Positions 17,170 to 64,000 of a stretch of 64,000 bases of DNA are shown piece by piece. Position numbers and translations under genes: made by a program. The stretch's first letter is position 1. Each line of letters begins with the position of its first letter. A model generated the notes under the pieces. That model was not told the DNA's origin. It ran no database searches and worked only from the letters and a program-made list of their open reading frames with translations. The stretch lies in assembly GCF_022808675.1 (NCBI RefSeq), contig NZ_JAKZKV010000008.1, forward strand, positions 66,711-130,710, written 5' to 3'. The DNA is from Parabacteroides sp. FAFU027. Its GTDB lineage: Bacteria; Bacteroidota; Bacteroidia; Bacteroidales; UBA7332.

Positions 17170-19545
17170 CTACTTTTTAATCACCTTAAACGATTTCGTA
17201 AAGTTTGAACCAGACACCTGCACAAGATAGATATTCGGTTTTAAAGCGCCCCCCAGAGTCATTTCACTTTTGATCTCTGATTGTCCTACAGTTTCAACCT
17301 GTTGGCCCAGCATATCATAAACCGCAACACGAACAATCTGATCCGGATTTTCCAGTTTTATTCTGAAAGCTGAAGAATAGGGATTAGGATATATATTAAT
17401 TGCTTTGGAATCGACAGAAATATCCGATACATCGGAGACACTTTGATCATCCCAATATATAATACCGCCGCCACCGGTGTACACTCTCCCGAAAACGTTC
17501 ATATCGCCTACCAGCAATTCAAGTCCTCCGAATTGATGAGCATTATCGTTCATTCTCAACCAACTCACACCTTTGTCGGTAGACCTGAAAAGTCCAGTAA
17601 TTCCATTCACAGTTCCCCAGATAAAAATGGTCGGATAAGAAGCTCCGGTCGCTGCTTTTCCAAAGCCGATAGACCGGCAATAACTTACATTCGTTACTGT
17701 TTTATATGTTTTTCCATAGTCGGTTGAATACCGTAATCCGTTGGCTATTCGCGGAACCCATATATGCCCTTCGTTACCCGGTGCAGCGCGACAAATATTT
17801 GTTGTCCATGGATTGGAAGAACTCCCCGCACTCCCTGCAAATGCGAAACTGACACCTTTGTTTGAACTTACATACATTCCACCATTACTCGGGTTATAAA
17901 CGTAAAAGTAATTGCTGTTCACCGGATCTGCCACCGGAATTGCACCGGAAACAATAGCACCTGTCGATTTTGTCCATGTATTGCCATTATCGGTGCTGTA
18001 AAACAGCGAATCGCTCGGGCAGTGAAGTATCGTTCCGCCATCGGCACTTAGTGTAGCTCGTCCGCCCGAGCCCTTGGAAGTGGCACAGGCTGTCCAGTTA
18101 GCCCCCATATTAGTAGAATAATACACATGAGCATCTGCATCACTCGTTCTTACCAATTTATTTACATTGGCACTGGCATACGCAATGCTTCGGTTAGTGC
18201 CACTACCAGGTGTAAGAAACTGTTTCGGATATGCCGTCAAGTCGGTAAATAAAAAACCAGTCATATCTCCCATCGCGCAAATAAACGGACCGCCCGGAAC
18301 ACTTACACCATCCAAAAATGCAGTTTCTTCTATTCCGATGACATCGTAAAACCATGTTGGGTTGGTTGCTGTAATATCGGAAGTGGTAAAGATTCCGCCA
18401 CCGCCAACAACACGTACTTTTTTACTGTCAAACGGGTCGAAAACAGCACATTCTGCCCAATTATCCTGACCAGAAGCACACCCAATACCATTATTGTTAA
18501 ATTTGCTATTGGATCCATTCTTCAAAGTCCAGCTTGTACCTCCGTTGGTGGACAGGTAAACGAAATCGCCCCACGTTTTACCATATTGGTTATTCATATA
18601 AACTCCGGTAGTGGAAATCACCACCCTGTTTACATTTGCCGGATCGATATCGACACCGCCATAGGAAAGATAATATTGTGAAAACGTATATGGTGTAACA
18701 TCCTTCCATAAGCCTGTTGAAGTATTCAACTTGTATACCGCACCTTTGCCACTTGTACCCGGTCCTTCATTATCAGCGTAAGTGACGTACATAGTGGTAT
18801 CCTGAAGTACAGCTCTGTGCGGCATGTAAGTGGTAGTGGCAGACATTGGGGTAAATGTGGCTCCACCGTCGGTACTTTTATAAATATTATCACTTCCCGT
18901 GCGGGAAACTCCGAGATAAATTGTTTGAGTTGTACCGTTGGAAGCGGTAGTGGGGTCAAAAACCACAAAACAGATTCCATTGCCATTGGTAGTAGTGGTA
19001 ACCCCATTCCATGCTAACGACCAATTGACACCACCGTCGGTACTTTTCCAAAGCCCGTTGGCTCTCGTACCGCAAAAAAGGATATTGCTGTTGTTCGGAT
19101 CTACTGCAAGACGCTCGCCATTACCGCGCCCATATCCATTGCCATGCGCCTTGAATTTGGAGGTAACATCTACATAGGTAAACGTATTTCCTTTATCGGT
19201 TGATTTCAGAATAGCCGTTCTCCCGTTATTTACATAAGATGTGCCACACAGCATATAGATATTGTTGGGGTTCTGGTTGTCAATTGCCAAGGCCTCTACA
19301 CCATAGAAACCGCCTTCGGCTTCCGAAAACCAATCGAGCAACTGCACCCACTTGCTGTTTGCCGCATCCCAGCGATAAGCGCCGCCCACATCGGTACGGC
19401 AATAAATATCCCCGGTTGTTTTATGGCTGATAACGCCAGTCACAAAACCTCCGCCCCCGATTGCTACGTGTTTAAATGTGTACTGCGCAAAAGAAGAAAC
19501 AGAACAAACAAATAGGATTGTGAAAAGAATTAGATTTTTTTTCAT
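17170..19545 (-). CDS. GH74 xyloglucanase with T9SS sorting domain, copy 1
   Basis: 791 residues from MKKNLILFT, signal peptide ending SSFAQ. The mature protein starts YTFKHVAIGGGGFVTGVISH and has the repeated KSTDGG/STDNG-type turns of two seven-bladed beta-propellers. The GH74 signature RTDVGGAYRW contains Asp52, the expected general base. Asp502 in LSADGG is a candidate for the general acid in the second propeller (not certain). C-terminal residues about 715-791 (INIYPNPYSSAFRI to FKVIKK) are a T9SS type A sorting domain. Family role: endo-cleavage of the xyloglucan backbone; endo-processive or reducing-end specificity cannot be told here. Highly similar in layout to the GH74 at 29070. It lies 7 bp from the downstream end of the GH29 gene, so co-transcribed. 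Confidence 0.93.
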   Translation of the reverse strand: MKKNLILFTILFVCSVSSFAQYTFKHVAIGGGGFVTGVISHKTTGDIYCRTDVGGAYRWDAANSKWVQLLDWFSEAEGGFYGVEALAIDNQNPNNIYMLCGTSYVNNGRTAILKSTDKGNTFTYVDVTSKFKAHGNGYGRGNGERLAVDPNNSNILFCGTRANGLWKSTDGGVNWSLAWNGVTTTTNGNGICFVVFDPTTASNGTTQTIYLGVSRTGSDNIYKSTDGGATFTPMSATTTYMPHRAVLQDTTMYVTYADNEGPGTSGKGAVYKLNTSTGLWKDVTPYTFSQYYLSYGGVDIDPANVNRVVISTTGVYMNNQYGKTWGDFVYLSTNGGTSWTLKNGSNSKFNNNGIGCASGQDNWAECAVFDPFDSKKVRVVGGGGIFTTSDITATNPTWFYDVIGIEETAFLDGVSVPGGPFICAMGDMTGFLFTDLTAYPKQFLTPGSGTNRSIAYASANVNKLVRTSDADAHVYYSTNMGANWTACATSKGSGGRATLSADGGTILHCPSDSLFYSTDNGNTWTKSTGAIVSGAIPVADPVNSNYFYVYNPSNGGMYVSSNKGVSFAFAGSAGSSSNPWTTNICRAAPGNEGHIWVPRIANGLRYSTDYGKTYKTVTNVSYCRSIGFGKAATGASYPTIFIWGTVNGITGLFRSTDKGVSWLRMNDNAHQFGGLELLVGDMNVFGRVYTGGGGIIYWDDQSVSDVSDISVDSKAINIYPNPYSSAFRIKLENPDQIVRVAVYDMLGQQVETVGQSEIKSEMTLGGALKPNIYLVQVSGSNFTKSFKVIKK

Positions 19546-19564
19546 GATTATTATCAATGTTTAT

Positions 19565-27029: not shown

Positions 27030-28922
27030 TTATTTCAAAAGAATCATTTTTCGGGTTGTCGCATAATTTCCAATTTTCAATTTATAGAAATACACCCCAG
27101 CAGGTAATGAACTTCCATCAAAATTTACAGTTTGATCACCTGAGAGTAATGCATTATTTATTAAAGTAGAAATTTTTCTACCCGTTTGGTCAAAAACCTC
27201 TATAGAAACAGGCTCTGCTGAATCTGTTTGAAACTTGATGGTTGTAGTACCCGAAAATGGATTCGGATAATTGGTAACACCAAATTTATCTTCCCTCAAA
27301 TTATTAATTGAGGCTGGAATTCCTGCATCGAGCATAATAAACTGAACCGACATTCTGGGGCAATTCACCACGATTGATCCGTCTGTAGAGTAGGCATTCG
27401 CCGGAATTGTCTCCAAAGTTTCACGCGGTCCCCATTGTGTGCCGGTCGGTGCGACACCATTTACCGACACATATAATGAAGAATCAATATTATCAACACC
27501 GCCAGTCAAGGTGTAAGTATAATATTTACTTCCAACACCGATATTCTTAGGATTGATTTTGACAACCTGAGCGGTTTTCGCTTTGTTTACAAGCACAACC
27601 CCGGTTTCACCTGAAGCAAACCGGGAAGCGTAGGCCAAAATACTTGAATTGGTTGAAGTCGCAGAAATCGCATGATCGCCGGTAAACTTCTGCTGATAAT
27701 AGGCATAATAGAAGTCAGGACGTGGCTGCCACAACAAACTGGTATTATTCCCCTGATAAAACATACCATCGTCACCCGAGGCAAGCAACCATCTTGCACC
27801 TAAACCAAAGTTGTTCTTAATCAACTCATTAAACAGGATAGTCGCCTGCATCCCATTAACATATGAACGCACCATGGTTGAACCGGACTTATTACCATCC
27901 ATATTATATTCAGTCAACGCTATGGGCTTTGCGAAAGCTTCTTTATTGATAATATCCTGCCGAATAAAGCTGCTGTTTTTTGCCGGCTCTGTTAGTGCTA
28001 CCGACAATAAATTATCGGCATTTTTATCATTTCCAAAATAATTATGCATTACATAAAAATCGGCTGCATCTCCCACCTGGCTAAAAACCCCGGCGTTCCA
28101 TGTTTTATCCACCGAATTCCAGCTTGTTGCGCCATCATAATGCAATATAAGTGCACCAATGAAAATTTTAGCATTCACTTGTTTTGCTGCTGCCCTCATA
28201 GAGTCGGCAAAAATCTTAAAATGCTGACCGTAAAGCTGTCCATTTATTATCTGTGGTTGCCCGTCTTTATTGGTTTTTGTATCTATCATCCAGCCTGCCT
28301 CCCAAGGACCGGGATTTTCATTCCCAATCTCCCAGAATTTTGTCCGCCCTTTATCGTAGCGCACCCATTCGGCAGCCTGATGGGCAGCCTGCGCAACAGG
28401 ATTTTGACCTAGCCCGTATCGCGCATAACCGTAATTAACCGTAATAAGCCCTTGTGAACCCGTCTGCTGACGCAACGTATAATAGTTTGCCGTAGTAGTG
28501 GACCATTCATTCGTTCCTGAAATGGAGGTAAACTTTACCTTTTTGCCAGATGCACCGTCATAAATTGAATCGGGCAGATCAGTTGGTCTTCCGTTCCAGA
28601 AAAAGATATTACCCCAGCTACCGCCCGGAAAACGGATCAAAGACGGATTCAACGCCTTTGTGTTTTTTACAAACGTAGCGTTACCTGTGTTATTCCCCAT
28701 CCAGGCGGCTATGGCATTTCCAAATACGTATTTAGAAATTGCACCAATGGTGTCAGCTGAAACAGTTACGGTTACGGCTGGTGTACTTGTAGTTTTAACT
28801 GCTACTTGAGAAACAGGAATGGTAGCTGTTTTAGGAACAAAATCATCCAGAAAGCAATTGGTGGTTTGGGCATTCACTGCCGAAACACACGCCATTAACG
28901 CAAATATCAATTTAAATTTCAT
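27030..28922 (-). CDS. Clan GH-A hydrolase, GH51-like, with T9SS tail
   Basis: 630 residues with a signal peptide ending SAVNAQ. The catalytic region has RFPGGSWGN (like the RFPGG motif of GH51), WEIGNENPGPW with Glu202 as probable acid/base, and ALTEYNMDG with Glu338 as probable nucleophile. The spacing of 136 is nearer GH51 than GH44. However LTEYN differs from the usual GH51 nucleophile context, so the family assignment stays open (GH51, GH44-related or an unclassified clan A member). A beta-sandwich follows (about 425-540), then a T9SS tail (VTNYPNPFSGTTTIKF to RKMILLK). Activity could be alpha-L-arabinofuranosidase or an endo-beta-glucanase; the surface location favours an endo- or polymer-active enzyme. 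It has terminators on both sides, so probably its own transcript. Confidence 0.7.
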   Translation of the reverse strand: MKFKLIFALMACVSAVNAQTTNCFLDDFVPKTATIPVSQVAVKTTSTPAVTVTVSADTIGAISKYVFGNAIAAWMGNNTGNATFVKNTKALNPSLIRFPGGSWGNIFFWNGRPTDLPDSIYDGASGKKVKFTSISGTNEWSTTTANYYTLRQQTGSQGLITVNYGYARYGLGQNPVAQAAHQAAEWVRYDKGRTKFWEIGNENPGPWEAGWMIDTKTNKDGQPQIINGQLYGQHFKIFADSMRAAAKQVNAKIFIGALILHYDGATSWNSVDKTWNAGVFSQVGDAADFYVMHNYFGNDKNADNLLSVALTEPAKNSSFIRQDIINKEAFAKPIALTEYNMDGNKSGSTMVRSYVNGMQATILFNELIKNNFGLGARWLLASGDDGMFYQGNNTSLLWQPRPDFYYAYYQQKFTGDHAISATSTNSSILAYASRFASGETGVVLVNKAKTAQVVKINPKNIGVGSKYYTYTLTGGVDNIDSSLYVSVNGVAPTGTQWGPRETLETIPANAYSTDGSIVVNCPRMSVQFIMLDAGIPASINNLREDKFGVTNYPNPFSGTTTIKFQTDSAEPVSIEVFDQTGRKISTLINNALLSGDQTVNFDGSSLPAGVYFYKLKIGNYATTRKMILLK

Positions 28923-29069: not shown

Positions 29070-31514
29070 TCATTGAATAATAAGTTTTTTAGTGATGCTC
29101 ATCCCTTCTGATATTGCCTTCACAATGTAAATCCCTGTTTTCAGCCCTGAATCAATATCCAACTTACCAGTATTAGCAGATACCTTTTCAAACAACAATC
29201 TGCCCTGATTTTCATAAATACTGATTTTCACTCTATCAGAAGCCCCCGGAAGCATTATCGAAAATTTACCATCCTTAGCCGGATTGGGATAAATAGCCAT
29301 ATCATTCAAGCTACTTTCGGTTTCTATTGAGTTAGTTGCACCGACAGGTTCCCCGTAAATTATACCTCTTCCTCCACCGACACCCATATATACTCTTCCG
29401 AAAGTATTCATATCTCCAATGAGTAAAGGTGCTCCGCCAAACTGATGAGCATCATCGTTCATTTTAGTCCATGTAGTGCCTTGATCTGTTGAACAAAAAA
29501 GTCCTGTGACACCAGACACAGTTCCCCAAATGAAAATGGTTGGATAGCTGGCTCCTTCTTTTGCCTTGCCAATGCCGATTGATTTACAATATGTTATTCT
29601 TCCAATATTGGTATATGTCACGCCATAATTGGTCGAATATTTCAATCCATTTCTACCACGAGGCACCCAGATATGTCCTTCATAACCGGGCACTGTCCGA
29701 ATCAAGACAGATTCCCACGGATAATTCGCCGTTGAATTGCCCGGAGCACCCGCGACTGAAAAGCTGACACCTTTATTGGTACTTCTGTACATCTGACCTG
29801 TGGAAGGATGATAGATATAAAAGTAATTAGCATTCACCTGATCGGCCACCGGGGTTGCAGATCCCAGTGTTACACCCGAACATGCAGACCAGTTTGTTCC
29901 GTTGTCTGTTGTATAATAGGTCGTGGTGGAATTTCCGGGACAGTGCAGTATTGTGCTTCCATCCGCACTGATAGTCACCCTGCCATCTGTGCCTTTATTG
30001 GTGGCGCACCCCGTCCATGTAGCACCCATGTCGGAGGAGTAGTAAACAACGTTTCCGCCGTTCGATGCTCTTACCACTTTGCTTGGGTTTGCACCCGCGT
30101 AAGCAATGCTTTGGTTATTCCCATCCGTAGGTGAAAGTCTTTTTGTTGGATATGAAGTTAAAGGATCATGCACAAAACCAGTCACGTCACCGAAAGACGA
30201 AATCAGCGGACCTCCTGGTATAGATATACCATCCAGAAAAGCTGTCTCTTCGATTCCAATCACATCATATTTCCACGAAGGATTCGTGGCCGTAATATTG
30301 GGACAGGTATATACACCACCACCACCTATTACCCGTACAATATTCGTATTAGTATGGTCAAACTCAATGCAGTCCATCCAGTTAACAGCTCCTCCGTTTG
30401 ACCAGCTCATTCCGTTACTGTCATAAGTAGCGTTCGTACCATTCTTAAGTGTCCAGGATTTTCCACCATCGGTTGTGAGGAAAACAAAGTCTCCCCAACC
30501 GGTTTTAAACTGGTTGTTCCAGTACATGCCGCATGTCGAAACTACCACCCTGTTAACATTATTGGGATCTATGCTTACCCCTCCATATGAATAATCCTTC
30601 CAATGAACGGGAGTCGCATTTGTCCACACACCAGAAGAGGTGTTGAGCTTATATAATTTGCCATTTCCATTGACTGCCGGGCCAGCACCATCAGCATAGG
30701 TAACATACATAGTAGTGTCTTTCAGTGCTACTCTGTGAGGCATATATGTCGTATCAGGAGTAATGTCAGTAAATGTTGCCCCTCCATCAGTACTTTTGTA
30801 AACATTACCGCTTCCGGTGCGCGAAACGCCGATATACATGGTCTGGGTTATTCCGTTCACCACGCTGCCCGCAGGATCGTAAAGGACAAAGCATATCCCG
30901 TTACCATTGGTAGTGGAAGTCACGCCGCTCCAAGCCTGATTCCAGGTTACTCCGGCATCCGTACTCTTCCATAGCCCATTGGCCCGGGTTCCGCAGAATA
31001 AAATATTACTGTTATGTGGATCTACGGCAAGTCGTTCTCCATTTCCGCGTCCGTTCCCATTTCCATGAACTTTAAACTTAGCGGTAAGGTCTGTATAGGT
31101 AAAAGTATTTCCTTTATCGGTTGACTTTAACATGGCAGACTTTCCTGAGCCAGAATAATTGGTTCCGCAAAGCATGTAAACATTGTTTGCATTTTGCGGA
31201 TCAAGTGCCAAGGCCTCTACTCCGTAAAGGTCACCTTGTGAATCGTTAAGCCAGTCGAGCAATTGAACCCATTTATTGTTCGTGGCATCCCAGCGGTAGG
31301 CTCCGCCCACATCGGTACGGCAATACCTGTCGCCGGTTGTAGGATGGGTAATGAGTCCTGTTACAAATCCACCCCCACCAATGGGGGCATTTTTGAATGT
31401 GTATTGAGCGTATGACTCAATAGCTGATAAAAAACTAACACATATCAATATTAACGCCGCTATAAATCGAGGCAGCCTATTGAAATATCTGTAATTCTTA
31501 GCTCTCGTTTTCAT
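29070..31514 (-). CDS. GH74 xyloglucanase with T9SS sorting domain, copy 2
   Basis: About 814 residues from MKTRAKNYRY; the longer N-terminal region before AIESYAQ is still signal-like. The mature start YTFKNAPIGGGGFVTGLITH is nearly the same as copy 1 at 17170, and the motif RTDVGGAYRW holds the expected catalytic base Asp68. Two beta-propellers with repeated KSTDGG and STNKG turns follow. The tail from about residue 740 (MAIYPNPAKDGKFSIML to TKKLIIQ) is a T9SS sorting domain whose sequence is quite different from that of copy 1. Catalytic parts look recently duplicated while tails diverged or were swapped. Proposed role: extracellular endo-xyloglucanase. 42 bp from the GH51 gene upstream, so co-transcribed, and followed by a strong terminator. 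Confidence 0.93.
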   Translation of the reverse strand: MKTRAKNYRYFNRLPRFIAALILICVSFLSAIESYAQYTFKNAPIGGGGFVTGLITHPTTGDRYCRTDVGGAYRWDATNNKWVQLLDWLNDSQGDLYGVEALALDPQNANNVYMLCGTNYSGSGKSAMLKSTDKGNTFTYTDLTAKFKVHGNGNGRGNGERLAVDPHNSNILFCGTRANGLWKSTDAGVTWNQAWSGVTSTTNGNGICFVLYDPAGSVVNGITQTMYIGVSRTGSGNVYKSTDGGATFTDITPDTTYMPHRVALKDTTMYVTYADGAGPAVNGNGKLYKLNTSSGVWTNATPVHWKDYSYGGVSIDPNNVNRVVVSTCGMYWNNQFKTGWGDFVFLTTDGGKSWTLKNGTNATYDSNGMSWSNGGAVNWMDCIEFDHTNTNIVRVIGGGGVYTCPNITATNPSWKYDVIGIEETAFLDGISIPGGPLISSFGDVTGFVHDPLTSYPTKRLSPTDGNNQSIAYAGANPSKVVRASNGGNVVYYSSDMGATWTGCATNKGTDGRVTISADGSTILHCPGNSTTTYYTTDNGTNWSACSGVTLGSATPVADQVNANYFYIYHPSTGQMYRSTNKGVSFSVAGAPGNSTANYPWESVLIRTVPGYEGHIWVPRGRNGLKYSTNYGVTYTNIGRITYCKSIGIGKAKEGASYPTIFIWGTVSGVTGLFCSTDQGTTWTKMNDDAHQFGGAPLLIGDMNTFGRVYMGVGGGRGIIYGEPVGATNSIETESSLNDMAIYPNPAKDGKFSIMLPGASDRVKISIYENQGRLLFEKVSANTGKLDIDSGLKTGIYIVKAISEGMSITKKLIIQ

Positions 31515-31565
31515 ATTTATCAATTTTAACTAATAATAGTTTTTAAATTTACACTCAGAAAAAGA

Positions 31566-42705: not shown

Positions 42706-45156
42706 TTACTGTTTGATAATCTTGTATTGTTGAGAGCATTTTGTATCACGTACATTTACCAAATAAACACCCGATATAAGATCATCACCAAAATCAATAC
42801 TTTCATTCGCATACATATCGGTTTCAATATGTTGTATTTGCATTCCCTGAAGATTATAAATATCGATAGATTTGATATTTACACCATTTGCGCGAAGGGT
42901 TATGCTATTCTCAAACGGATTAGGCCCAATGATTGAATTTTTATCAGCATAATTCGCAGAAACTCCGGTTCCTGTATTTATGCCCATCCAAGGAATTCCC
43001 ATTCCTGCCGTACTTTTATACACTCTCCCGTAAACATTTTGATCTGCTTCAATATTACCGGCATTGGCTAAATGACCCCATTCATGTTCATCATCATTGG
43101 CTCTAATCCACGTTTTCCCCATATCTACCGAACGACACATTCCCTCTGGCGAAGAACCTAATGATTTTCCCCAAATATAAACAGTCGGATAATCGTTCCC
43201 TGGAGCTTCTTTTCCGAGCGAAAATGCGGCACAGGAGTAATTATTACAGGTTGTAAACGTTACCCCTTCATTGGTGCTGTATCTTATTTTTCCGTTATTA
43301 TTTATCCATACATGGCCGGCTTTTCCTGGAATGGTTTTGAGCACACTCGAACCGCCTGCACTTCCCACATTCGAAATCGGGTTAAACGTTTTAGCACCAT
43401 CATCGCTTCGGTAAATTTTACCTGTAGTGTTGTACAAATAAAATTTCAACGGATCAACGCCATCGGGCACCGGAACGGCATTGGCAGGCATTGTGGCAGT
43501 TTTATTCCATGTCACCCCTTTGTTGTCAGTCCAATACAGGACATTGCCTGTTGCAGTGTTATTTGCTTGCCACAAAATTATTTTTCCATCAGCTGATATA
43601 GAGGCCTTACCACCTGCAATTTTAACAGGCAATACCGGTAATTCAGTCCATGTGCTACCGTTATTTTCACTTAAAGCAACAACATTCCAATACTCAAATT
43701 GACCGGGGCTCAATTCTTTTTGTTTATTTACCGACCGTACAATTGTGCTGGTATTTTGCGGAGCATAAGCCATACTCACCGACTGTGTAATACTTGCTGT
43801 TGGATATTGGTCGATATCTGTATGAACGAAACCGTTTACATCGCCAATGGCTGTGATGAGCGGACCGTTAGGAATACTAAGCATTCCCTGAAAACACGGC
43901 ACTGTTTCTTCCAAACCATGCGAAACTACTTTCCATGCAGGTTTCGAAGCCATAATATTATCAGTCATAAACACTCCATTTCCGGATACCGCATATACTA
44001 CGCCCGGCTTGGTGTTGCTCATGGTAACACAACCTACCCAATGCATCGAGTGGTTCTGCATCCAATTAATGCCATTCGTGAGCATTGTGCTACCAGTACT
44101 TGAATTTTTTCGTACCCACAAACCTGTAGAACCTCCGGTTGCACTGTAATAAATCTCGTCGCCCCAACCCCATGGTTGCTGTGAGCCCCAGAAATTATAG
44201 GTTGAACAGGTTATTTTCTGTGGATCATTTAATATTAAACTGATTCCGCTGTATCCCCTATTGGTTGCAGGTGAAATATTTGTCCATTGTTTGGTGGTCA
44301 TGTTATATTTGTAAACCCCACCATATCCATCGGCGGAATCACCATTGGCATAGGTTACATACAAATTTCTATCGTTAGGCGATAATACGCAACGTTGAGG
44401 TTTTGCCTTGCTAAATCCGCCAATCGATGTCCATGTAGCTCCAAAATCTTCGCTGATAAAAAGGTTGTTTCCCGTTTTATGATTACCCACGATGATAGTC
44501 GAGCAACCCTCTGGGGTTGCCGAATCTTTATCGAACAGAACAAAACTAAATGAGGCAGCAGTGCCGATACTATCGGGGAAAGTGGTTACTTTATTCCAGG
44601 TTTTACCCGCATCGGTACTTTTAAACAAGCCATTTGAATTGCGTGTGCCGAAATAAAGTATATTTCCATTTGCAGGGTCAATGGCTAAGGTTTCTCCTTT
44701 TTGACGATCCAAACCATTTCCATCCACCTTGAACTTGGATGTGGTTTCATAAACCTCCCAGGTTTTTCCGTAGTCGAACGAACGCAACAAAGCACTTTTT
44801 CCATTGTTCCAATAGTTTGTCCCTGCCATGGCGAAGAGTTTATTGGGAGAGCCTGGATCAATGACAAAAGCCTCAGTTCCCATATAGGTTGTTTCATCGG
44901 GCGAAACCCATGCAAAGAGAGGCGTCCAGTCTTTAGTGGTTTCATTCCACTTGTAAATACCACCCACATCGCTTTTTGCATAAAACACATTTTGTTCAGA
45001 TAAACTCTCGATTACAGAGCATACATAACCGCCACCGCCAATTTTCACATAACCAAATGTTTTTTCTTGTGCAATATTTCTTTGAGCTAAAAAGGCAGTG
45101 AGAATTAAAAGCAAAATTATTCGCTTTGAGTTCCAATTACAATACTTTTTTTTCAT
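42706..45156 (-). CDS. Divergent GH74-family enzyme with T9SS tail, copy 3
   Basis: 816 residues; N-terminal signal region ending RNIAQ. The mature start FGYVKIGGGGYVCSVIES and motif KSDVGGIYKW (Asp63 as base) place it in GH74, but it departs from copies 1 and 2: RTDVGGAYRW is replaced by KSDVGGIYKW, the segment after blade 1 reads TTYMGTEAFVIDPGSP, and loops carrying Trp such as SQQPWGWGDEIYY and NWMQNHSMHWVG are longer. This suggests another cleavage pattern (exo-, or a different position relative to branches). ISADGK in the second propeller holds a candidate general acid Asp. The tail (IGPNPFENSITLRA to QQYKIIKQ) is a T9SS sorting domain. First gene after a weak terminator behind the SGNH esterase. 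Confidence 0.88.
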   Translation of the reverse strand: MKKKYCNWNSKRIILLLILTAFLAQRNIAQEKTFGYVKIGGGGYVCSVIESLSEQNVFYAKSDVGGIYKWNETTKDWTPLFAWVSPDETTYMGTEAFVIDPGSPNKLFAMAGTNYWNNGKSALLRSFDYGKTWEVYETTSKFKVDGNGLDRQKGETLAIDPANGNILYFGTRNSNGLFKSTDAGKTWNKVTTFPDSIGTAASFSFVLFDKDSATPEGCSTIIVGNHKTGNNLFISEDFGATWTSIGGFSKAKPQRCVLSPNDRNLYVTYANGDSADGYGGVYKYNMTTKQWTNISPATNRGYSGISLILNDPQKITCSTYNFWGSQQPWGWGDEIYYSATGGSTGLWVRKNSSTGSTMLTNGINWMQNHSMHWVGCVTMSNTKPGVVYAVSGNGVFMTDNIMASKPAWKVVSHGLEETVPCFQGMLSIPNGPLITAIGDVNGFVHTDIDQYPTASITQSVSMAYAPQNTSTIVRSVNKQKELSPGQFEYWNVVALSENNGSTWTELPVLPVKIAGGKASISADGKIILWQANNTATGNVLYWTDNKGVTWNKTATMPANAVPVPDGVDPLKFYLYNTTGKIYRSDDGAKTFNPISNVGSAGGSSVLKTIPGKAGHVWINNNGKIRYSTNEGVTFTTCNNYSCAAFSLGKEAPGNDYPTVYIWGKSLGSSPEGMCRSVDMGKTWIRANDDEHEWGHLANAGNIEADQNVYGRVYKSTAGMGIPWMGINTGTGVSANYADKNSIIGPNPFENSITLRANGVNIKSIDIYNLQGMQIQHIETDMYANESIDFGDDLISGVYLVNVRDTKCSQQYKIIKQ

Positions 45157-45190: not shown

Positions 45191-45214
45191 TTTCAATCAA
45201 TAATCTGATTGAAA
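45191..45214 (-). terminator. AT-rich hairpin overlapping the stop of the SGNH esterase gene
   Basis: Perfect 9-bp arms TTTCAATCA (45191-45199) and TGATTGAAA (45206-45214) with a 6-nt loop. The TGA stop lies within the arm. On the minus strand a run ATTTTTTT follows. AT-rich, so probably a partial terminator. Confidence 0.5.
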
Positions 45215-47212
45215 AGAAGAAGCAGGCAATCCTTCTTTGTTAAACAAAGTGGCAGATGCCGTATCAGACCATGCATATCTTACTGCAACCGGTGCTTTTA
45301 CTTTATCAGACCACGCCATCACATTCTTATCCTTAATCAAAGCTTTTGCCGGATAAAATACTTTATCTGCTCCTGCAATTTCAAAGCCATCCAGCATTTT
45401 CCCGTTTTGTTTCAATCCGCTTCCGGTATTCGAGAAACTTATAATAATTTTTTGCCCTTCTACTCTATGTTTTTCATACAATGGACCCGAACAGGTATTT
45501 TTTTGGCCATACGTTTTTGCAAATGCCCATAAAGCGAGCCTTTTCCCGACATCCTGTTTATTCGCCGGATGGATATTTGCATTGTTTCCTATATCCATTG
45601 AAACAACCATTCCTGTACCTGGAAGAGAAAGTGCTTTCCGTTGCGCATCTCTCAGCTCTTGCGATTTTCCTTTCTGATAATCATTTTGGTAAGCCCAGGG
45701 AGCGATCTGTACAAAATAAAAAGGAACATCACTATTCCACTGCTTTCTCCAATCGGTAATAAGAGCAGGGAAAAGTCTTTCGTATTGCTTTGCATTTCCT
45801 ACATTGGCTTCACCCTGATACCATATTACACCTTTTATCTTATAAGAGGTCAAAGGCGCAATCATGGCGTTAAATAATGCTGTCGGTGTACCTGGTGTAA
45901 GATCCATGCTGCAGAAAGGTTTCTCCTGGAATTTAAATTGATCAATTCCAAAGAGATAGAGTTTCCCATTTCTGTATTCTGCAGAAGGAAGATATTTCCA
46001 CTCTCCCGCCAGTTCAATCCTGCCACCTTCAGAATTTTGGAGAAAAAGCTGTTCTTTCTTTCCCCAAATTCCGCCTCCGCCTCCTGTATCCATCACTTTG
46101 ACAGAAATCACATTCTTGCCTTTTTTTAGAAGACCTTCGGGTATTTCATACACACGTCCCGACTGCCATAGTCCATCCTTTACAGTCGTCCCTACCAGCT
46201 TTCCGTTCACATAAGTCATATCCATGTCGTCAATTGGACCCAGCGATAACTTATAGGATGAAGGTTTTTCATCTGTAATTTCAAACTCTTTCCTGAACCA
46301 TACAACTCCGTCAAACTCCCCAATTCCGCCTCGTTCCAATGCAGAAGGAAGTTGCATCGTTTTCCATGACCTGTCATTGAAATTTTCTGTCGCAGCTTCT
46401 GCATCTTTCAGGTCAAGGTGAGACCAGTTGACTCCAGATGAATTGGCCGTGAGACTCAGATCAATCGCAGGCAACTGCTTCATCCATTCATTGATCTTTT
46501 TTCTTTCCAGAGAAGACACGCTGATTTTTTTAAGAAGTTCTTTAAAATCATCCATTCCTGAAAGACCTGCATTGCTTACCCAGGACTCAGCCGGCGTACC
46601 TCCCCAAGAGGAGTTGATAACACCTACAGGCACACCAAGTTTTTTGTGAACCTCCCTCGCAAAGAAATAAGCTGTGGCACTTAAGTCCGGAGCATTTTGC
46701 GGATTACATACATTCCACACAGCCTTTACATCACTGAGAGGAGTATCAGAAAGTTCTTGAGCAACTGTAAACATTCTGATTCCCTGATAAGATGCAGAAG
46801 CAATTTCATTTTTTGAATTCTGCACCGTATCAGCAGGAGGCCAACCTTTAAGCCTCATTTCCATATTTGATTGACCCGATGCAAGCCAGACTTCTCCAAT
46901 CAATACATCGTCAATCAGGATAGTGGTATCTGCATTGGATATCTCGATTTTATATGGACCTCCAGCACCAGGTGTTCTCAGTTTGGAAGTCCATTTGCCA
47001 TCCTTTGCCGCTTTTGATTTTGCTGTTTCTCCCCAGCTTCCCCTGATGGTTATTTCTGCTTCGGAATTACTTTTTCCCCAAAAAACAACTTCCTCCTTCT
47101 GCTGAAGCACCATGTGTTGGGAAAAAAGTGATGGCAGCACAAGAGTATTTTGATTCTTTGCCATGCAACTGAACGAGAGAGCAAAGCACAATATCAAAAC
47201 CAGTGATTTCAT
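45197..47212 (-). CDS. SGNH sialate-O-acetylesterase-type esterase with inserted jelly roll (CE20-like)
   Basis: About 671 residues from MKSLVLILC, signal peptide ending FSCMAK. After an Ig-like N-terminal domain (MVLQQKEEVVFWG) comes GEVWLASGQSNMEM with nucleophile Ser115. SSWGGTPAESW follows. The SGNH domain is split by a GH2-sugar-binding-like jelly roll (about 240-390, VWFRKEFEI), then resumes at KGVIWYQGEAN and IHPANKQDVG (His). SGNH esterases split by such a jelly roll include CE20 xyloglucan acetylesterase of Xanthomonas (from memory). This makes it the best candidate for deacetylating xyloglucan galactose or backbone units. No sorting tail: periplasmic, unlike the two surface esterases at 21738 and 34112. 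57 bp after GH29. Confidence 0.85.
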   Translation of the reverse strand: MKSLVLILCFALSFSCMAKNQNTLVLPSLFSQHMVLQQKEEVVFWGKSNSEAEITIRGSWGETAKSKAAKDGKWTSKLRTPGAGGPYKIEISNADTTILIDDVLIGEVWLASGQSNMEMRLKGWPPADTVQNSKNEIASASYQGIRMFTVAQELSDTPLSDVKAVWNVCNPQNAPDLSATAYFFAREVHKKLGVPVGVINSSWGGTPAESWVSNAGLSGMDDFKELLKKISVSSLERKKINEWMKQLPAIDLSLTANSSGVNWSHLDLKDAEAATENFNDRSWKTMQLPSALERGGIGEFDGVVWFRKEFEITDEKPSSYKLSLGPIDDMDMTYVNGKLVGTTVKDGLWQSGRVYEIPEGLLKKGKNVISVKVMDTGGGGGIWGKKEQLFLQNSEGGRIELAGEWKYLPSAEYRNGKLYLFGIDQFKFQEKPFCSMDLTPGTPTALFNAMIAPLTSYKIKGVIWYQGEANVGNAKQYERLFPALITDWRKQWNSDVPFYFVQIAPWAYQNDYQKGKSQELRDAQRKALSLPGTGMVVSMDIGNNANIHPANKQDVGKRLALWAFAKTYGQKNTCSGPLYEKHRVEGQKIIISFSNTGSGLKQNGKMLDGFEIAGADKVFYPAKALIKDKNVMAWSDKVKAPVAVRYAWSDTASATLFNKEGLPASSFQSDY

Positions 47213-47293
47213 ATTGAAAATATTATCTAAAAACATCGGTTAGAACTTTTTTATTTTTAAAACACATCTAAAGGGAAACAGCATCCTTGATTA

Positions 47294-57768: not shown

Positions 57769-57810
57769 AAAGATTTTTTAGTCGTTTGTACATTTTGAAA
57801 TCTAAAACTA

Positions 57811-57840
57811 AAAAAGAGGGTGTCTGTACACCCTCTTTTT
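57811..57840 (-). terminator. Perfect bidirectional hairpin terminator
   Basis: Arms AAAAAGAGGGTGT (57811-57823) and ACACCCTCTTTTT (57828-57840) are perfect 13-bp complements around a 4-nt loop, with A- and T-runs at the outer ends. Typical bidirectional intrinsic terminator, about 55 bp past the stop at 57896. Confidence 0.9.
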
Positions 57841-57895
57841 TATGAATAAACTTAAGGCCAGTCACACAATAATGGAACTTTCTCTCTGTTTAAAA

Positions 57896-59185
57896 CTACT
57901 TTTTGACAAATTTGCTCTGCGTAGTGCTATTTCCAACAGTCATCTTCACAAGATAAACTCCGTTAGGTAATGAAGACACATCTACTTTCTCGCAGTTTTC
58001 TGCGCTTTTAACCATTTCACCGCTTAAATTAAAGATGGAAGCCTTTGCAGAAGCCGGTATCACAATATAAGTGGTGGCCGGATTTGGATAGATAGAAAGA
58101 ACATTCGGTTTTCCTGCTTCTATCGATGTGGGGACACCATTATGTACTTTACCAAGAATTTTCACATTGTCATAAACAGCTGTAAACAAAGGTGTATGCG
58201 AAAGTCTGATACTGATTGTATTTACATTGCTTATCGGATTACCACTTACATCTTTTAAAAGAATAACAGGAGTTGCCCAGTTCTGTCCAATTGCAGAAGT
58301 CGGTACAGGCACCCAATCACCGGCTCCTATCTTCACATCAATTAGTGGCGATTTATCAGCATCACTCGCACTGTAATATCCGGCATTTTGTTCCGTCAGA
58401 CTCCACGGCCATGACATATCGGCAGATAACTTCAGGCTGTCAAATCCGGCAACATTAATATCAGGTATAATAACAACAGCATCAGTTGGAGTAATTTTCA
58501 GAACATGACCATGATCACCCCACCACTGATCTAAATTTATATTTGCATCACCTGTAGTTTGCAAATTTACTTTTCCAAACCAACTACCAGCTTTGGTACT
58601 GGGAGCTCCTGACCAACTACCCCATGGACTCCACGATGCAGCGAATGATTCACCATATAATGTATTAAAAGTTGATTTTTTGAATACTATATTGTCAAGG
58701 TACACAGTATCCTTTGCTGTACCTGTTGAATTAGTACCATTATTGAAGAAAACTGTTACTGCGGTAATTTTTGAAGTACAAACCAGGTTGCGGGTATATT
58801 TGATCCATTTTGTGGAATCCGTGACCGCCTGTTCATACCAATCCAATTGATTACCAGACGCATCTTTTAATTGAATTTGGACTTTACCTTTAATCGTGTT
58901 TGGTGAATATACACTAACTTCATATGAAGAATAAACTTTCGAGTCAATATCAACTGCAGTTGAATTACCATTAGTATAACCACCGTTATGTGTAAGTTTT
59001 CCTACATTTGCCGAACTATTCACGGCATCCGAAAGCGGATTGGCATTAGGCACAAAAGTGTCACCCCAGCCTCCATTGGAAAAAGCAGGAGTAACTCCAT
59101 CAAAGTCAAATACAGTGATATCCTGAGAGTAGCCCGAGAGGCTTAGCATAAATATGCCGAGAAGAGTAAAATAGAATCTTTTCAT
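57896..59185 (-). CDS. Putative T9SS-sorted glycan-binding protein, two jelly rolls
   Basis: 429 residues, Sec signal ending SGYSQ. Two successive beta-jelly-roll domains without catalytic motifs: about 22-172 (DITVFDFDGVTPAF to TVYLDNIVFKK) and about 178-345 (LYGESFAASW to VYDNVKILGK). Then a T9SS tail (LSIYPNPATTYIVIPA to STTQSKFVKK). The ligand-type aromatic-rich stretches WYEQ, WSPWGSW and LDQWWGDHG fit sugar binding. I do not recognise a named family. Position two genes after SusD, where surface glycan-binding lipoproteins are usually found, suggests a non-catalytic binding role. Own terminator at 57811-57840 and a terminator upstream at 59232. No lipobox. Confidence 0.75.
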   Translation of the reverse strand: MKRFYFTLLGIFMLSLSGYSQDITVFDFDGVTPAFSNGGWGDTFVPNANPLSDAVNSSANVGKLTHNGGYTNGNSTAVDIDSKVYSSYEVSVYSPNTIKGKVQIQLKDASGNQLDWYEQAVTDSTKWIKYTRNLVCTSKITAVTVFFNNGTNSTGTAKDTVYLDNIVFKKSTFNTLYGESFAASWSPWGSWSGAPSTKAGSWFGKVNLQTTGDANINLDQWWGDHGHVLKITPTDAVVIIPDINVAGFDSLKLSADMSWPWSLTEQNAGYYSASDADKSPLIDVKIGAGDWVPVPTSAIGQNWATPVILLKDVSGNPISNVNTISIRLSHTPLFTAVYDNVKILGKVHNGVPTSIEAGKPNVLSIYPNPATTYIVIPASAKASIFNLSGEMVKSAENCEKVDVSSLPNGVYLVKMTVGNSTTQSKFVKK

Positions 59186-59231
59186 AAAATGTTATTTCAA
59201 GGTAATTATACAATTGATTTGGGTTAGATTA

Positions 59232-59268
59232 AAAAGGGTAGGAAAATCAAAGACTAACCTACCCTTTT
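59232..59268 (-). terminator. Hairpin terminator after the first glycan-binding-like gene
   Basis: Arms AAAAGGGTAGG (59232-59242) and CCTACCCTTTT (59258-59268), perfect over 11 bp with a 15-nt loop. The minus strand continues with TTTAATC. It lies 16 bp past the stop codon at 59284. Confidence 0.8.
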
Positions 59269-59283
59269 GAGCTTATTTATGAT

Positions 59284-60819
59284 TTACTCTTTTACGAGCT
59301 TACCAATTTTAGTCACACCATCGTTGATTACTTTCACAAAATAAACGCCGGAAGCCAAAGAAGCTACAGATACTTTATCAGTGTTTTGAGCATTCAATAC
59401 AACACGGCCATTCAGGTCCATAATAACTACTTTTTGAGCGTAAGGAGTTTTGATGTAGCTTACAGCAGGATTTGGATATACTCTAAACACATCTGATTTT
59501 GTATTAGAAACACCTGATAAAACTGATTTTCCTGACAACCACAAATCGTCAATCCAGAAATCAGCTCCTGACTTATAGCTCATGCGAAGGTTAATTGTAC
59601 TGGCTTTAGGCAGTGGTGCTCCCTCGATAGTTGTAAATGGATATTCCACTAAGGTGAAAATTTCATCTTCGTATTTATCCATCAATCCCCAGCCTAAATC
59701 AACTTGCTCGCCTGTGAATTGCAAGAAAGTGCTGTTTGAGTATATTTCATAGAAGTTACCACCATCTACAGAGATTTCCACTTTTGGACGTGCATTTGCA
59801 ATTTCACTATTATAAGGCCACCAGAGTTGTGTTCCAAGCCCGAAGCTCAAATTCAAATCAGTATTGCCTGAAACATCAATAGGACCAGTCTCCAACGTAC
59901 CGATAAACTTAGAGCGAAATTGCATTCGTCCACCACCAGAAGCACCTTTATATTTAGCACCCATTCCCCAGCCACGGGCAATAAAAGTACCTACACTATC
60001 TGCTGCAAAATCTCTGAACTTAAACGGAATTCCTGACGTAAAACCACCAACAGACGCATACCCCTCAGCTGTTCCGTATTCGCCAGGCCCGTCAAATTTT
60101 GTTACTCCATTATTATCAACGTAGGGATACGCTCGTTGTCCAGGTATCTTTCCATTCTCCCAGTCAGCAATATAACCTCCAAAAGTTTCGTAGAAAACGG
60201 TAGCCGGCAATTCTACACCATCAGCAGGAGCTTTAAATCCGATCTGGTCGATATAATACTCCGTATCTTCAGTTTTAGCTACTGAATCACCATTGTTTAT
60301 GCTAATTTGAATAGCATTAAACTTTACTGATGATTTGTTTTTCCCCAAAAAAGCCGTAACTGTAGTCCACTCATCCTGAGGAATCTGATCTTTATATCCT
60401 CCAACTGCTACTATTTCACCTTTGTCGTTAATCAGGTTAATGCTAATGTTGGATTTTGCAGGAGATTTACCTGCAACCGGATACACCTGAACCTGAAAAT
60501 TTGGAGTTTGAGAGAAAACAATACTTTGGTTAAGTCGAATATAAATTGATCTCCAACCACCTGCTGCACGTACATATTTCGCCGCAGTAGGACTCGTATT
60601 TTCCACAGCGAAAGGATTGTCAGCCAAAGTTATGTTGGCACTTTGGACTGTGACGGGAGTTGTCTTCAGAGTGTCCATCCATAAACTGTCTGTTACTAAC
60701 GGATTCTTATCCTCAAAATTAGCGATAAGAATGTCTTTTGCTCCAAAATCAGAAGCATCCTGTGCGTAAGCCAATGCCAACGCACCACTAAAAAGAAGGG
60801 TCAAAATTTTTCTTTTCAT
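59284..60819 (-). CDS. Putative T9SS-sorted surface glycan-binding protein downstream of SusD
   Basis: 511 residues, signal peptide ending LAYAQ. Two non-catalytic beta-sandwiches: about 25-195 (ILIANFEDKNP to EYYIDQIGFKA) and about 205-432 (ATVFYETFGGYIADWENG to FWIDDLWLSGK). Then a T9SS tail (VFRVYPNPAVSYIKTP to KIGKLVKE). Similar in plan to the next gene at 57896. Its place immediately after SusD (78 bp) is that of SGBP genes, which normally encode lipoproteins; no lipobox is present here. Aromatic clusters GWRSIY, FGLGTQLWWPYNS and LGWGLMDKYED could form glycan-binding platforms. Function is inferred from position and fold. Confidence 0.8.
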   Translation of the reverse strand: MKRKILTLLFSGALALAYAQDASDFGAKDILIANFEDKNPLVTDSLWMDTLKTTPVTVQSANITLADNPFAVENTSPTAAKYVRAAGGWRSIYIRLNQSIVFSQTPNFQVQVYPVAGKSPAKSNISINLINDKGEIVAVGGYKDQIPQDEWTTVTAFLGKNKSSVKFNAIQISINNGDSVAKTEDTEYYIDQIGFKAPADGVELPATVFYETFGGYIADWENGKIPGQRAYPYVDNNGVTKFDGPGEYGTAEGYASVGGFTSGIPFKFRDFAADSVGTFIARGWGMGAKYKGASGGGRMQFRSKFIGTLETGPIDVSGNTDLNLSFGLGTQLWWPYNSEIANARPKVEISVDGGNFYEIYSNSTFLQFTGEQVDLGWGLMDKYEDEIFTLVEYPFTTIEGAPLPKASTINLRMSYKSGADFWIDDLWLSGKSVLSGVSNTKSDVFRVYPNPAVSYIKTPYAQKVVIMDLNGRVVLNAQNTDKVSVASLASGVYFVKVINDGVTKIGKLVKE

Positions 60820-60897: not shown

Positions 60898-62628
60898 TTA
60901 TTCCCAACCACTATTCTGTTTCAGTAATTTAGATTTTTGCATTTCATCGTATGGCAACGGCATTGCATACATTTTGGAATCGAACACACGATCTTCTACT
61001 TTGAAAACTTCGTACGTGAATGTAGTACCATTTTTGGTTATTTTCATCCCATGTATTGGTGCGTTAAAATATGTCTCGCCTTGTTTCCAACGACGCACGT
61101 CCCAAAAACGATGTCCCTCGAAACAGAGCTCAACTCTCCTTTCATTTCTAACTCTTTCTAAGAAATCATCTTTTGATAATGACTTAAGTGCTGACGGCGT
61201 TGCTAATCCTGCCCGATCTCTAATAAGTTTTAACGCATCATAAGCAGCACTGATGTTCCCTATTTCAGCCAAAGCCTCAGCGTAATTTAACAATATCTCT
61301 GCATATCGGAAATGAACCCAGAAATGGGTGGCTGTTTTACGATTCAGAATAATATCAGCATTAGGATCTACGAACTTACGGACATAATACCCTGTTTTTG
61401 TAGCATTTTTTGAGCTGTTGAAGCCATCTTTACCTCCCACATACGTATCAAGAGTCCTGGCTGCTAACTGAGCAGGAGTTTCGTCTTTAACTGCAACGCC
61501 ATATTGCGAGCCATTTAAAGCAATAAAATACGCAAGGCGTTTATCTCTTCGGTAATACGGATTAGTAGGGTTATATCCGCTTTTGGGATCCGTAATGGGA
61601 TAGCCCGTGAGGGATTCAAAAGCATCCACCAAATCCTGTGTAGGATTAATTTGTCCTCCTCCTCCTAAACTTGGCGGCAAATTACTTGCTTCAAAACCAT
61701 TTGATTGGACCACAGGGCTAGAAAACAAAACTTCATCGTTATCTGGAGTTGTAAAAACGCTTAACATATTATCGTTCGAAACAGTAGCTTTATCAGTCAA
61801 TTTGTATGTTGGTGATTTAGATCCGACTGGTATTACAGCTGCTAATTTTATTACATCATTAGCAGCATCCGCAGCTAATTTCCATTTCTCCACATCGCCG
61901 GAAGGATTTGCAAACGGACTAGCAGCATATAACAGAACCCTGGATTTTAAAGCCAATGCGGCAGCCTTAGACGCTTTACCATAATCAGAACCTCCTCGTC
62001 TTACAGGAAGAACTGCAGCCGCATTATCGCAATCACTAACGATGTAGTTCACACACTCATCATACTTGTTTCGCGCAAAATCGAGCGTATCATTGATCGT
62101 AAGGACTTTTTCAGGAACGATTGGAATGCCCAGATTTTTAGAGGGATCTCCGAATCTTTTCAAAAGCTCGAAATAATAGAATGCCCGTAAGAATCTTGCT
62201 TCTCCCCTCAATTGCTTCCTTAACGTATCATTAACACTAGGGGTCAATTTATAAGTATTGTCATCAAGAAACATAGCCTTGTCAACATTATCCAAAAATA
62301 TATGCACCCTCCTGATACCTGCATAGTAATGACCCCAGGTCCATGAACCTACATATGTTCTGGAAGTCCATGAGCCATTATTCATGATCAAAAATGGCGA
62401 TGCCTCATCCGTATGCTTGGATTCATCGGTCATAAAAGTCTCATCGAATGCCCCTGATGGCAAATAACTATAGATCGTCCGGACATAATTTAGCGCATAA
62501 ACGTAAGATGAAAATACGTCACTCTTAGTAAGAGTCTGATCGTACCCAGGATCCAGGTAACCCTCGCAGGAGCTCAACATTGCGATGAATATTGCAACAA
62601 AAAATATTTTGAAAGCAGTAAATTTCAT
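60898..62628 (-). CDS. SusD/RagB-family outer-membrane lipoprotein
   Basis: About 576 residues from MKFTAFKIFFVAIF; lipobox LSSC gives Cys21 followed by EGYLDPG, with an acidic residue right after the Cys as in surface lipoprotein signals. The TPR-rich N-terminal region starts YALNYVRTIYSYLPSG, with LRGEARFLRAFYYFELLKRFGD as a classical SusD helix. The C-terminal part has WVHFRYAEILLNYAEALAE and VRNERRVELCFEGHRFWDVRRWK. Partner lid of the SusC pore: captures oligosaccharides and closes the transporter. It is the only complete gene with an unambiguous lipobox in the window. 14 bp downstream of SusC, so co-transcribed and made in equal amounts. Confidence 0.96.
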   Translation of the reverse strand: MKFTAFKIFFVAIFIAMLSSCEGYLDPGYDQTLTKSDVFSSYVYALNYVRTIYSYLPSGAFDETFMTDESKHTDEASPFLIMNNGSWTSRTYVGSWTWGHYYAGIRRVHIFLDNVDKAMFLDDNTYKLTPSVNDTLRKQLRGEARFLRAFYYFELLKRFGDPSKNLGIPIVPEKVLTINDTLDFARNKYDECVNYIVSDCDNAAAVLPVRRGGSDYGKASKAAALALKSRVLLYAASPFANPSGDVEKWKLAADAANDVIKLAAVIPVGSKSPTYKLTDKATVSNDNMLSVFTTPDNDEVLFSSPVVQSNGFEASNLPPSLGGGGQINPTQDLVDAFESLTGYPITDPKSGYNPTNPYYRRDKRLAYFIALNGSQYGVAVKDETPAQLAARTLDTYVGGKDGFNSSKNATKTGYYVRKFVDPNADIILNRKTATHFWVHFRYAEILLNYAEALAEIGNISAAYDALKLIRDRAGLATPSALKSLSKDDFLERVRNERRVELCFEGHRFWDVRRWKQGETYFNAPIHGMKITKNGTTFTYEVFKVEDRVFDSKMYAMPLPYDEMQKSKLLKQNSGWE

Positions 62629-62666
62629 GGAATCTAATTTTTTAATATTCAATATTTACGTAATAA

Positions 62667-64000
62667 TTAGAAAGTTACATTCATCCCCAAAGTGATTATA
62701 CGCTGCATTGGGTAGTGACTAATGCCAGCTTGAGTATCTTCGGGATCATAATCTTTCACATGATCTAAAGAAAGCAGGTTGTACCCATTAACATATGCCC
62801 TTGCTTTAGAAACGCCAACGCTTTTAAGAATTGAGGAAGGTAAATTATAACCGATTTCGACCGTCTTTAATTTCACAAACGATCCATTTTTAAACCAGAA
62901 ATCAGAATATTGTTGATTATTGCTATTGTTATTTACAGACAAACGGGGATAAATAGCCGTTGCTGCTGTTTCAGGGGTCCAGGCCTGCAAGGCATAAACC
63001 GAAGCATTTCCTCCACCATTAAAACTATTACTATAAACTCCCGGCATATAAATATACCGATCAGCCATCCCCATCAACTGGGCTGCAAAATCAAATAATT
63101 TGTATTTAACTGACAGGTTAAGACCGCTTATCAGATTTGGCACTGAACTACCTGCTATAGGTTTTGCATCGTTCCAATCAATTTTTTTGTCACCATTGAC
63201 GTCCACATATTTAATGTCTCCGGCACGTATATTGCCGCCATTTTGAGCAACATCATAACCTTTGTCTTTTTCTTCCTGAGTCAGATTCCCCTGAGCTCTC
63301 CGGTCGATTTCCTCTTGAGTGAAAAACCCATTGCTCGTATAGGCGAAGGGTTGTCCGATTGGATTTCCTGCCTGATATTGATAAGCATACTGCTTGAATG
63401 ATTCATCGATATTAACAATTTTACTTCTGGTTAGCATCACATTTCCTTTTATAGTCACACGCAATGACTTGCTTATTTGCTTATCAAAAGTCAACTCGGA
63501 ATCAAATCCCCAGCTTTTAGTCTCACCTGCATTTTCATAAGGCAACGGAAGACCGGCCATACTTGGCGTGGTAGCATATTTTTGAACAACGATATCTTTA
63601 CGCTTGTCATAGAACCCATCGATAGTCCACAATAAGCTATTATTCAGAAATCCAAAATCCAAACCAACATTTGATTTATAAGAAGTCTCCCATTTCAGAT
63701 TATCGTTACCTACACGAGTCTGGTCTGTTCCGGTTCTGTCAACACCACTTGTACCAAAAGCATAACCGGAAACATCTCCCCAGTTTTCCCTGAATAAAAA
63801 CCTATCATTAAAAGGTTTTTCTAATCCTGTAGCGCCATAAGAGAGTCTTAATTTCAAGAAAGAAAGGTCATGATTATCTTTAAGAAAATCCTCATCGCTC
63901 ACAATCCAACCGGCAGAAACTGCAGGAAATAAACCGAAGCGATGGCCTCTTGCAAAGTTTTCGGATCCGGTATAACTCGCAGTTCCATCCAACAGGTATT
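62667..64000 (-). CDS. SusC/RagA-family TonB-dependent transporter (C-terminal part)
   Basis: About 444 residues of the C-terminal beta-barrel; the frame stays open at the right edge (reading YLLDGTASYTG), so N-terminal plug, signal and carboxypeptidase-like domain lie outside. Seen motifs typical of SusC: GLFPAVSAGWIVSDEDFLKD, LKLRLSYGATG, DGFYDKRKDIV, YVDVNGDKKIDWNDAKPIAGS, FVKLKTVEIGYNLP and the terminal GMNVTF ending in an aromatic residue that inserts in the outer membrane. Imports oligosaccharides using TonB energy together with SusD. The upstream promoter and any regulator must lie to the right of the window. Confidence 0.96.
   Translation of the reverse strand, partial: YLLDGTASYTGSENFARGHRFGLFPAVSAGWIVSDEDFLKDNHDLSFLKLRLSYGATGLEKPFNDRFLFRENWGDVSGYAFGTSGVDRTGTDQTRVGNDNLKWETSYKSNVGLDFGFLNNSLLWTIDGFYDKRKDIVVQKYATTPSMAGLPLPYENAGETKSWGFDSELTFDKQISKSLRVTIKGNVMLTRSKIVNIDESFKQYAYQYQAGNPIGQPFAYTSNGFFTQEEIDRRAQGNLTQEEKDKGYDVAQNGGNIRAGDIKYVDVNGDKKIDWNDAKPIAGSSVPNLISGLNLSVKYKLFDFAAQLMGMADRYIYMPGVYSNSFNGGGNASVYALQAWTPETAATAIYPRLSVNNNSNNQQYSDFWFKNGSFVKLKTVEIGYNLPSSILKSVGVSKARAYVNGYNLLSLDHVKDYDPEDTQAGISHYPMQRIITLGMNVTF

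Follow-up and report, generated by a model that had tools for sequence, protein, structure and literature searches.

Models of glycan capture in the Bacteroidota assume lipid-anchored binding proteins around SusCD, and SGBP-B proteins are anchored in this way. In Bacteroides, the SGBP-B proteins from loci for xyloglucan or beta-1,3-glucan (PDB 7k44 and 7kwb) are non-enzymatic, multi-domain beta-sandwich proteins encoded after SusD. The structure library lists PDB 8qx6 under the title 'Novel laminarin-binding CBM X584'; this carbohydrate-binding module presumably originates from Zuhlke et al. 2024. CHU_1279 of Cytophaga hutchinsonii, an SGBP-B-like outer membrane protein with two CBM-like domains and an atypical locus, binds cellulose; its gene cluster contains no SusD, and T9SS does not occur as a term in the article (PMC12016534). 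ChiA of Flavobacterium johnsoniae is a T9SS-dependent enzyme of a SusCD locus that is secreted in soluble form (PMC5127042). Our literature search, which was of partial coverage, found no described T9SS-tailed SGBP.

Here we describe two genes, B and A, that follow a SusD gene in a 64,000-nt stretch of DNA from Parabacteroides sp. FAFU027, hereafter the window. Like 7k44 and 7kwb, their products are encoded directly after SusD, show a CBM-like beta-sandwich (through their N-domains) and match no enzyme family; however, in place of a lipobox they have an ordinary Sec signal together with a T9SS tail, and no sequence similarity to these SGBP-B proteins was found. They resemble ChiA in being T9SS proteins of a SusCD locus, although ChiA is an enzyme. 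We consider A and B to be, with fair probability, glycan-binding proteins at the SGBP-B/SusE position of a xyloglucan locus that are exported by the T9SS instead of being lipid-anchored. We therefore see in the pair a variant form of a known type of part and not a new system.

Genes A and B probably close a SusCD transport unit

Gene B (59284..60819, 511 aa) and gene A (57896..59185, 429 aa) are on the minus strand, as are SusC2, SusD2 and the terminator described below, and each encodes a signal peptide, an N-domain, a C-domain and a T9SS type A tail. B begins 78 nt after SusD2 (60898..62652; PF07980, 191.5 bits), which has the lipobox ...MLSSCEG, and A begins 98 nt after B. Upstream of SusD2 are SusC2 (C-terminal part at 62667..63998, remainder in L040:2-1780), SusD1, SusC1, a T9SS-tailed GH44, GH43 and a hybrid two-component (HTCS) regulator, the genes from SusD1 onwards also lying in L040. 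A probable intrinsic terminator was located after A at 57809..57842; its 15-pair hairpin is flanked by A and T runs, has a folding energy of -24.4 kcal/mol (RNA fold, z=-6.1; 0 of 200 shuffles were equally stable) and separates the A/B pair from a fucosidase gene. A scan found no terminator hairpin in the SusD2-B and B-A gaps. The gene spacing and the terminator after A suggest that A and B close the SusCD transport unit and that the enzymes belong to another unit.

Downstream of A are a fucosidase-family gene, GH3, a carboxylesterase and GH31, and beyond them a long series of genes, among them three for GH74-like BNR proteins, GH2, GH42, GH5, a second GH44, more fucosidases, GH97, an arabinofuranosidase and SASA esterases. 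The enzymes of the locus include three GH74-like, two GH44 and two GH31 proteins, together with fucosidases, galactosidases and SASA esterases. The combination of GH74/GH44 with GH31, fucosidases and galactosidases points to xyloglucan; none of the scanned genes was recognised as a GH16. The GH74-like (sortilin/BNR) trio (17170-19557, 29070-31523 and 42706-45156) consists of separate proteins within a single locus, each T9SS-tailed. Another T9SS-tailed protein of 630 aa (27030-28922) has no Pfam or NCBIfam match besides its tail; judging from motifs that include RFPGGS and EIGNENPGPW, it may be a glycoside hydrolase of clan GH-A that is as yet unclassified. A secreted protein at 2-1369 (456 aa, truncated by the window end) has no Pfam or NCBIfam match.

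Signals for T9SS export

The signal peptides of B (MKRKILTLLFSGALALAYA/Q; aa 1-19, 60763..60819) and A (MKRFYFTLLGIFMLSLSGYS/Q; aa 1-20, 59126..59185) contain no cysteine, and a lipobox is therefore absent from both proteins. Cysteine is entirely missing from B, and the two of A, at 136 and 398, are internal. The tails of B (aa 447-511, 59284..59481) and A (aa 365-429, 57896..58093) scored 38.3 and 49 bits, respectively, against PF18962 of Pfam (cut-off 27) and 44.7 and 49.8 bits against TIGR04183 of NCBIfam (cut-off 23); with a sorting domain above the curated cut-offs and a Sec signal, both proteins classify as T9SS type A cargo. No catalytic family of Pfam or NCBIfam matched A or B. An earlier note on this DNA had described A and B as the genes directly after SusD, with a Sec signal, a T9SS tail, no lipobox and no enzyme motif, and had proposed that they would, if they bind xyloglucan, be a T9SS-exported alternative to SusE/F; the description held in each of these respects, and the proposal is supported by gene position, CBM-like N-domain, tail and the absent lipobox.

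The T9SS machinery was assessed through the PorU sortase, which is encoded in the near-complete genome containing the window (1158.8 bits against a cut-off of 420). Using our own tail model, we identified ten T9SS-tailed proteins among the 34 locus proteins checked: A, B, the three GH74-like proteins, two GH44 proteins, a CBM6 esterase, a CBM6 SASA esterase and the unclassified protein at 27030-28922. This model was trained partly on the same locus proteins, and the Pfam and NCBIfam scores are the independent evidence. A clear lipobox was found among the 34 proteins only in the SusDs, and all locus proteins with a clear surface signal besides SusC/SusD are T9SS-tailed. Since no clear lipobox protein besides the SusDs occurs in the locus, T9SS surface display appears to be the local rule; the replacement of lipoproteins by T9SS cargo covers the entire locus, beyond the A/B pair. 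The signal regions of two esterase-type proteins (13335-14270 and 45197-47236) contain cysteines that resemble those of a lipobox but are ambiguous.

The N-domains belong to a CBM4/CBM22-like family

The N-domains of B (aa 26-203, 60211..60744) and A (aa 21-172, 58670..59125) were both modelled well as beta-sandwiches (pLDDT mostly 75-95; mostly 75-94 in B). Foldseek matched B to 8qx6 (E=4.5e-6, TM 0.65 over the target) and weakly to 7k44, the SGBP-B of the B. uniformis xyloglucan locus. A matched CBM22, CBM11, CBM29 and CBM4-2, in the last case also the variant XG34 ('an evolved xyloglucan binding CBM'), and both proteins matched the B. thetaiotaomicron SGBP-B (7kwb). TM scores over the whole query were low because the remainder of the models was poorly resolved. 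The comparison of predicted structures with CBMs, which the earlier note had proposed as a check, thus yielded CBM-like folds for both N-domains.

Sequence searches with tail-bearing B were swamped by T9SS-tail matches, and the tail was removed for later searches. PF02018 (CBM_4_9) scored 25.1 bits on A, slightly under its cut-off of 25.9, and did not match B in Pfam. Profiles built from relatives found 8qx6 at E=5e-20 (12 rows) and E=1.7e-21 (36 rows). Both profiles include A and B, and we therefore rebuilt the model from 33 relatives in other genomes only; this leave-out HMM matched A (E=3e-13) and B (E=1e-13) and no other of the 34 locus proteins, which places them by sequence homology with CBM X584 and CBM4_9-like modules. 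Single-sequence searches of the PDB with A or B alone gave T9SS tails and chance matches and did not retrieve 8qx6, indicating that the two are divergent members. The N-domains of A and B share one CBM4/CBM22-like family that includes the laminarin-binding CBM of 8qx6.

N-domain relatives and the probable ligand

The N-domain profile matched 34 of the 149 genomes of the order. In the loci that we fetched, lipobox proteins with this domain are encoded directly after SusD in L164, L183, L184, L194 and L195; the presence of GH16 genes was confirmed for L184 and L195. Laminarin-type loci are a common setting of this domain family. T9SS-tailed proteins with the domain directly follow SusD in L170 and L175 and are followed by GH30; many other copies in the fetched loci are T9SS-tailed and have no SusD directly before them. 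The same binding family therefore takes either anchor at the same gene position, and the anchor swap is not unique to the A/B locus, recurring in the G024/G137 lineage (L175, L170). The proteins of that lineage contain two copies of the N-domain family and a T9SS tail and lie 120 nt after SusD; they differ from A and B in belonging to another SusCD pair next to GH30, and no match to the A/B C-domain was seen in them. The N-domain is also fused to GH16 in L179 and to CBM30 in L187. One protein that extends past its contig end (L198, G019:C73) contains five tandem copies of the family.

By the evidence of domain family and context, A and B probably capture a beta-glucan, most likely xyloglucan. 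It is the gene context that points to xyloglucan; the N-domain does not imply this ligand, since laminarin is the ligand of the one relative with a solved structure, and several of its relatives are located in GH16 (beta-1,3-glucan) loci. T9SS cargo may, moreover, be released to the medium instead of being retained. The ligand of A and B might be a glucan other than xyloglucan (beta-1,3-glucan, mixed-linkage glucan or cellulose), or the two might work as CBM proteins that the T9SS releases in soluble form; we regard this as the most serious of the alternatives, though an unlikely one. The laminarin-binding relative, the GH16 and GH30 genes adjoining other N-domain copies and the cellulose binding of the two-domain, SGBP-B-like CHU_1279 (PMC12016534) speak for it. 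The A/B locus, in contrast, is of the xyloglucan type and not of the laminarin type, with no GH16 among its scanned genes, and xyloglucan binding is possible for CBM4-type folds, judging from the titles of 3jxs and 4bj0.

The C-domains and the conservation of the pair

The C-domains of B (aa 204-436, 59512..60210) and A (aa 173-347, 58145..58669) are homologous to each other and match no known family; that of A is tryptophan-rich (10 W). No Pfam match was found even at E=10, and no PDB match. Both C-domains were modelled mostly at pLDDT < 60. Of the two jelly-roll domains that the earlier note had assigned to each protein, the N-terminal one is thus supported as a beta-sandwich, whereas the fold of the C-terminal one is putative. 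The suggestion of undescribed CBM families must be narrowed likewise: the N-domain joins the family of 8qx6, and only the C-domain qualifies as a candidate for a new family of binders. A profile search gave no convincing genome match to the C-domain outside the A/B group. Some very long proteins of G092 and G119 gave weak hits, which we discounted as probably due to chance because the frame inspected (L130) reads as a long repeat protein.

A scan of the genome contigs for relatives of A and B retrieved only the near-identical MAG bin86(7d) and UBA12394; gene A was found in G002 at 99%. The order SusC1-SusD1-SusC2-SusD2-B is intact in UBA12394. The SusC/D orthologues there are 63-72% identical, and the B orthologue is 65% identical in its body, 69% in its C-domain and 47% in its T9SS tail, which is retained. 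A lipobox call in this B (IFSC) was rejected; the cysteine is within the hydrophobic stretch and is a glycine in the window copy. Gene A is absent after B in UBA12394, where a convergent regulator is next, and of the pair at least A is therefore dispensable to the arrangement.

We also compared 40 loci around SusD2 relatives of about 35-45% identity. The first gene after SusD is lipobox-like in 22 of them by a loose pattern, and the A/B domains were found in none. A 315-aa protein (L104:5640-6587), 472 nt past a SusD relative, has a C-terminal stretch that resembles a degenerate sorting tail, although the tail model does not hit it. The first genes in L092, L095 and L114 encode T9SS-tailed proteins that read as glycoside hydrolases from their sequences. 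These genes, the fusion of the N-domain to GH16 in L179 and the SusE-like proteins with activity reported in the title of PMC8211771 raise the possibility that the C-domains are catalytic, acting as an unclassified hydrolase, lyase or esterase on xyloglucan, with the N-domain as an appended CBM. We consider this improbable, since the C-domain, besides matching nothing in Pfam and the PDB, has no recognisable catalytic motif; as its sequences come from two lineages only, conserved catalytic residues cannot be picked out. Least probable is that A and B have no glycan ligand and serve the SusCD complex or the outer surface in assembly or as spacers. In favour of this, growth was still restored by CHU_1279 variants whose cellulose binding was strongly reduced (PMC12016534), and DUF1735 spacers exist in such loci according to the title of PMC11216935; against it, the domain family of A and B includes a solved binder and shows CBM-like fold matches.

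A model for glycan capture

We propose the following course for A and B as T9SS-exported binding proteins. Judging from the spacing and the terminator after A, they would be co-transcribed with SusC1-SusD1-SusC2-SusD2 and, given their signal peptides, exported by Sec. The T9SS, represented in the genome by the gene for PorU, would then recognise the tails, the proteins would cross the outer membrane and PorU would remove the tails. From T9SS biology, A and B may be expected to stay on the cell surface. There, the CBM4/22-like N-domain, perhaps together with the aromatic-rich C-domain, would hold a beta-glucan, most likely xyloglucan, and keep it near the T9SS-tailed GH74-like and GH44 enzymes, so that glucan fragments would pass to the two SusCD pairs.

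A broader reading, which we offer tentatively and hold with less confidence than the assignment of A and B itself, is that there is a class of surface glycan-binding proteins in which, at the SusE/SGBP-B position, attachment by the T9SS has taken the place of lipidation, that this class arose from the same CBM family in two or more lineages, and that the A/B C-domain is a new xyloglucan-binding CBM family confined to a small Bacteroidota group. The C-domain may add a family to the known binders of a major plant hemicellulose. If the T9SS can deliver the binding module, the system is not defined by its lipid anchor, and annotation that seeks lipoproteins after SusD would overlook T9SS-tailed binders. 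Both of the main routes to the surface in this phylum would then serve the same job interchangeably.
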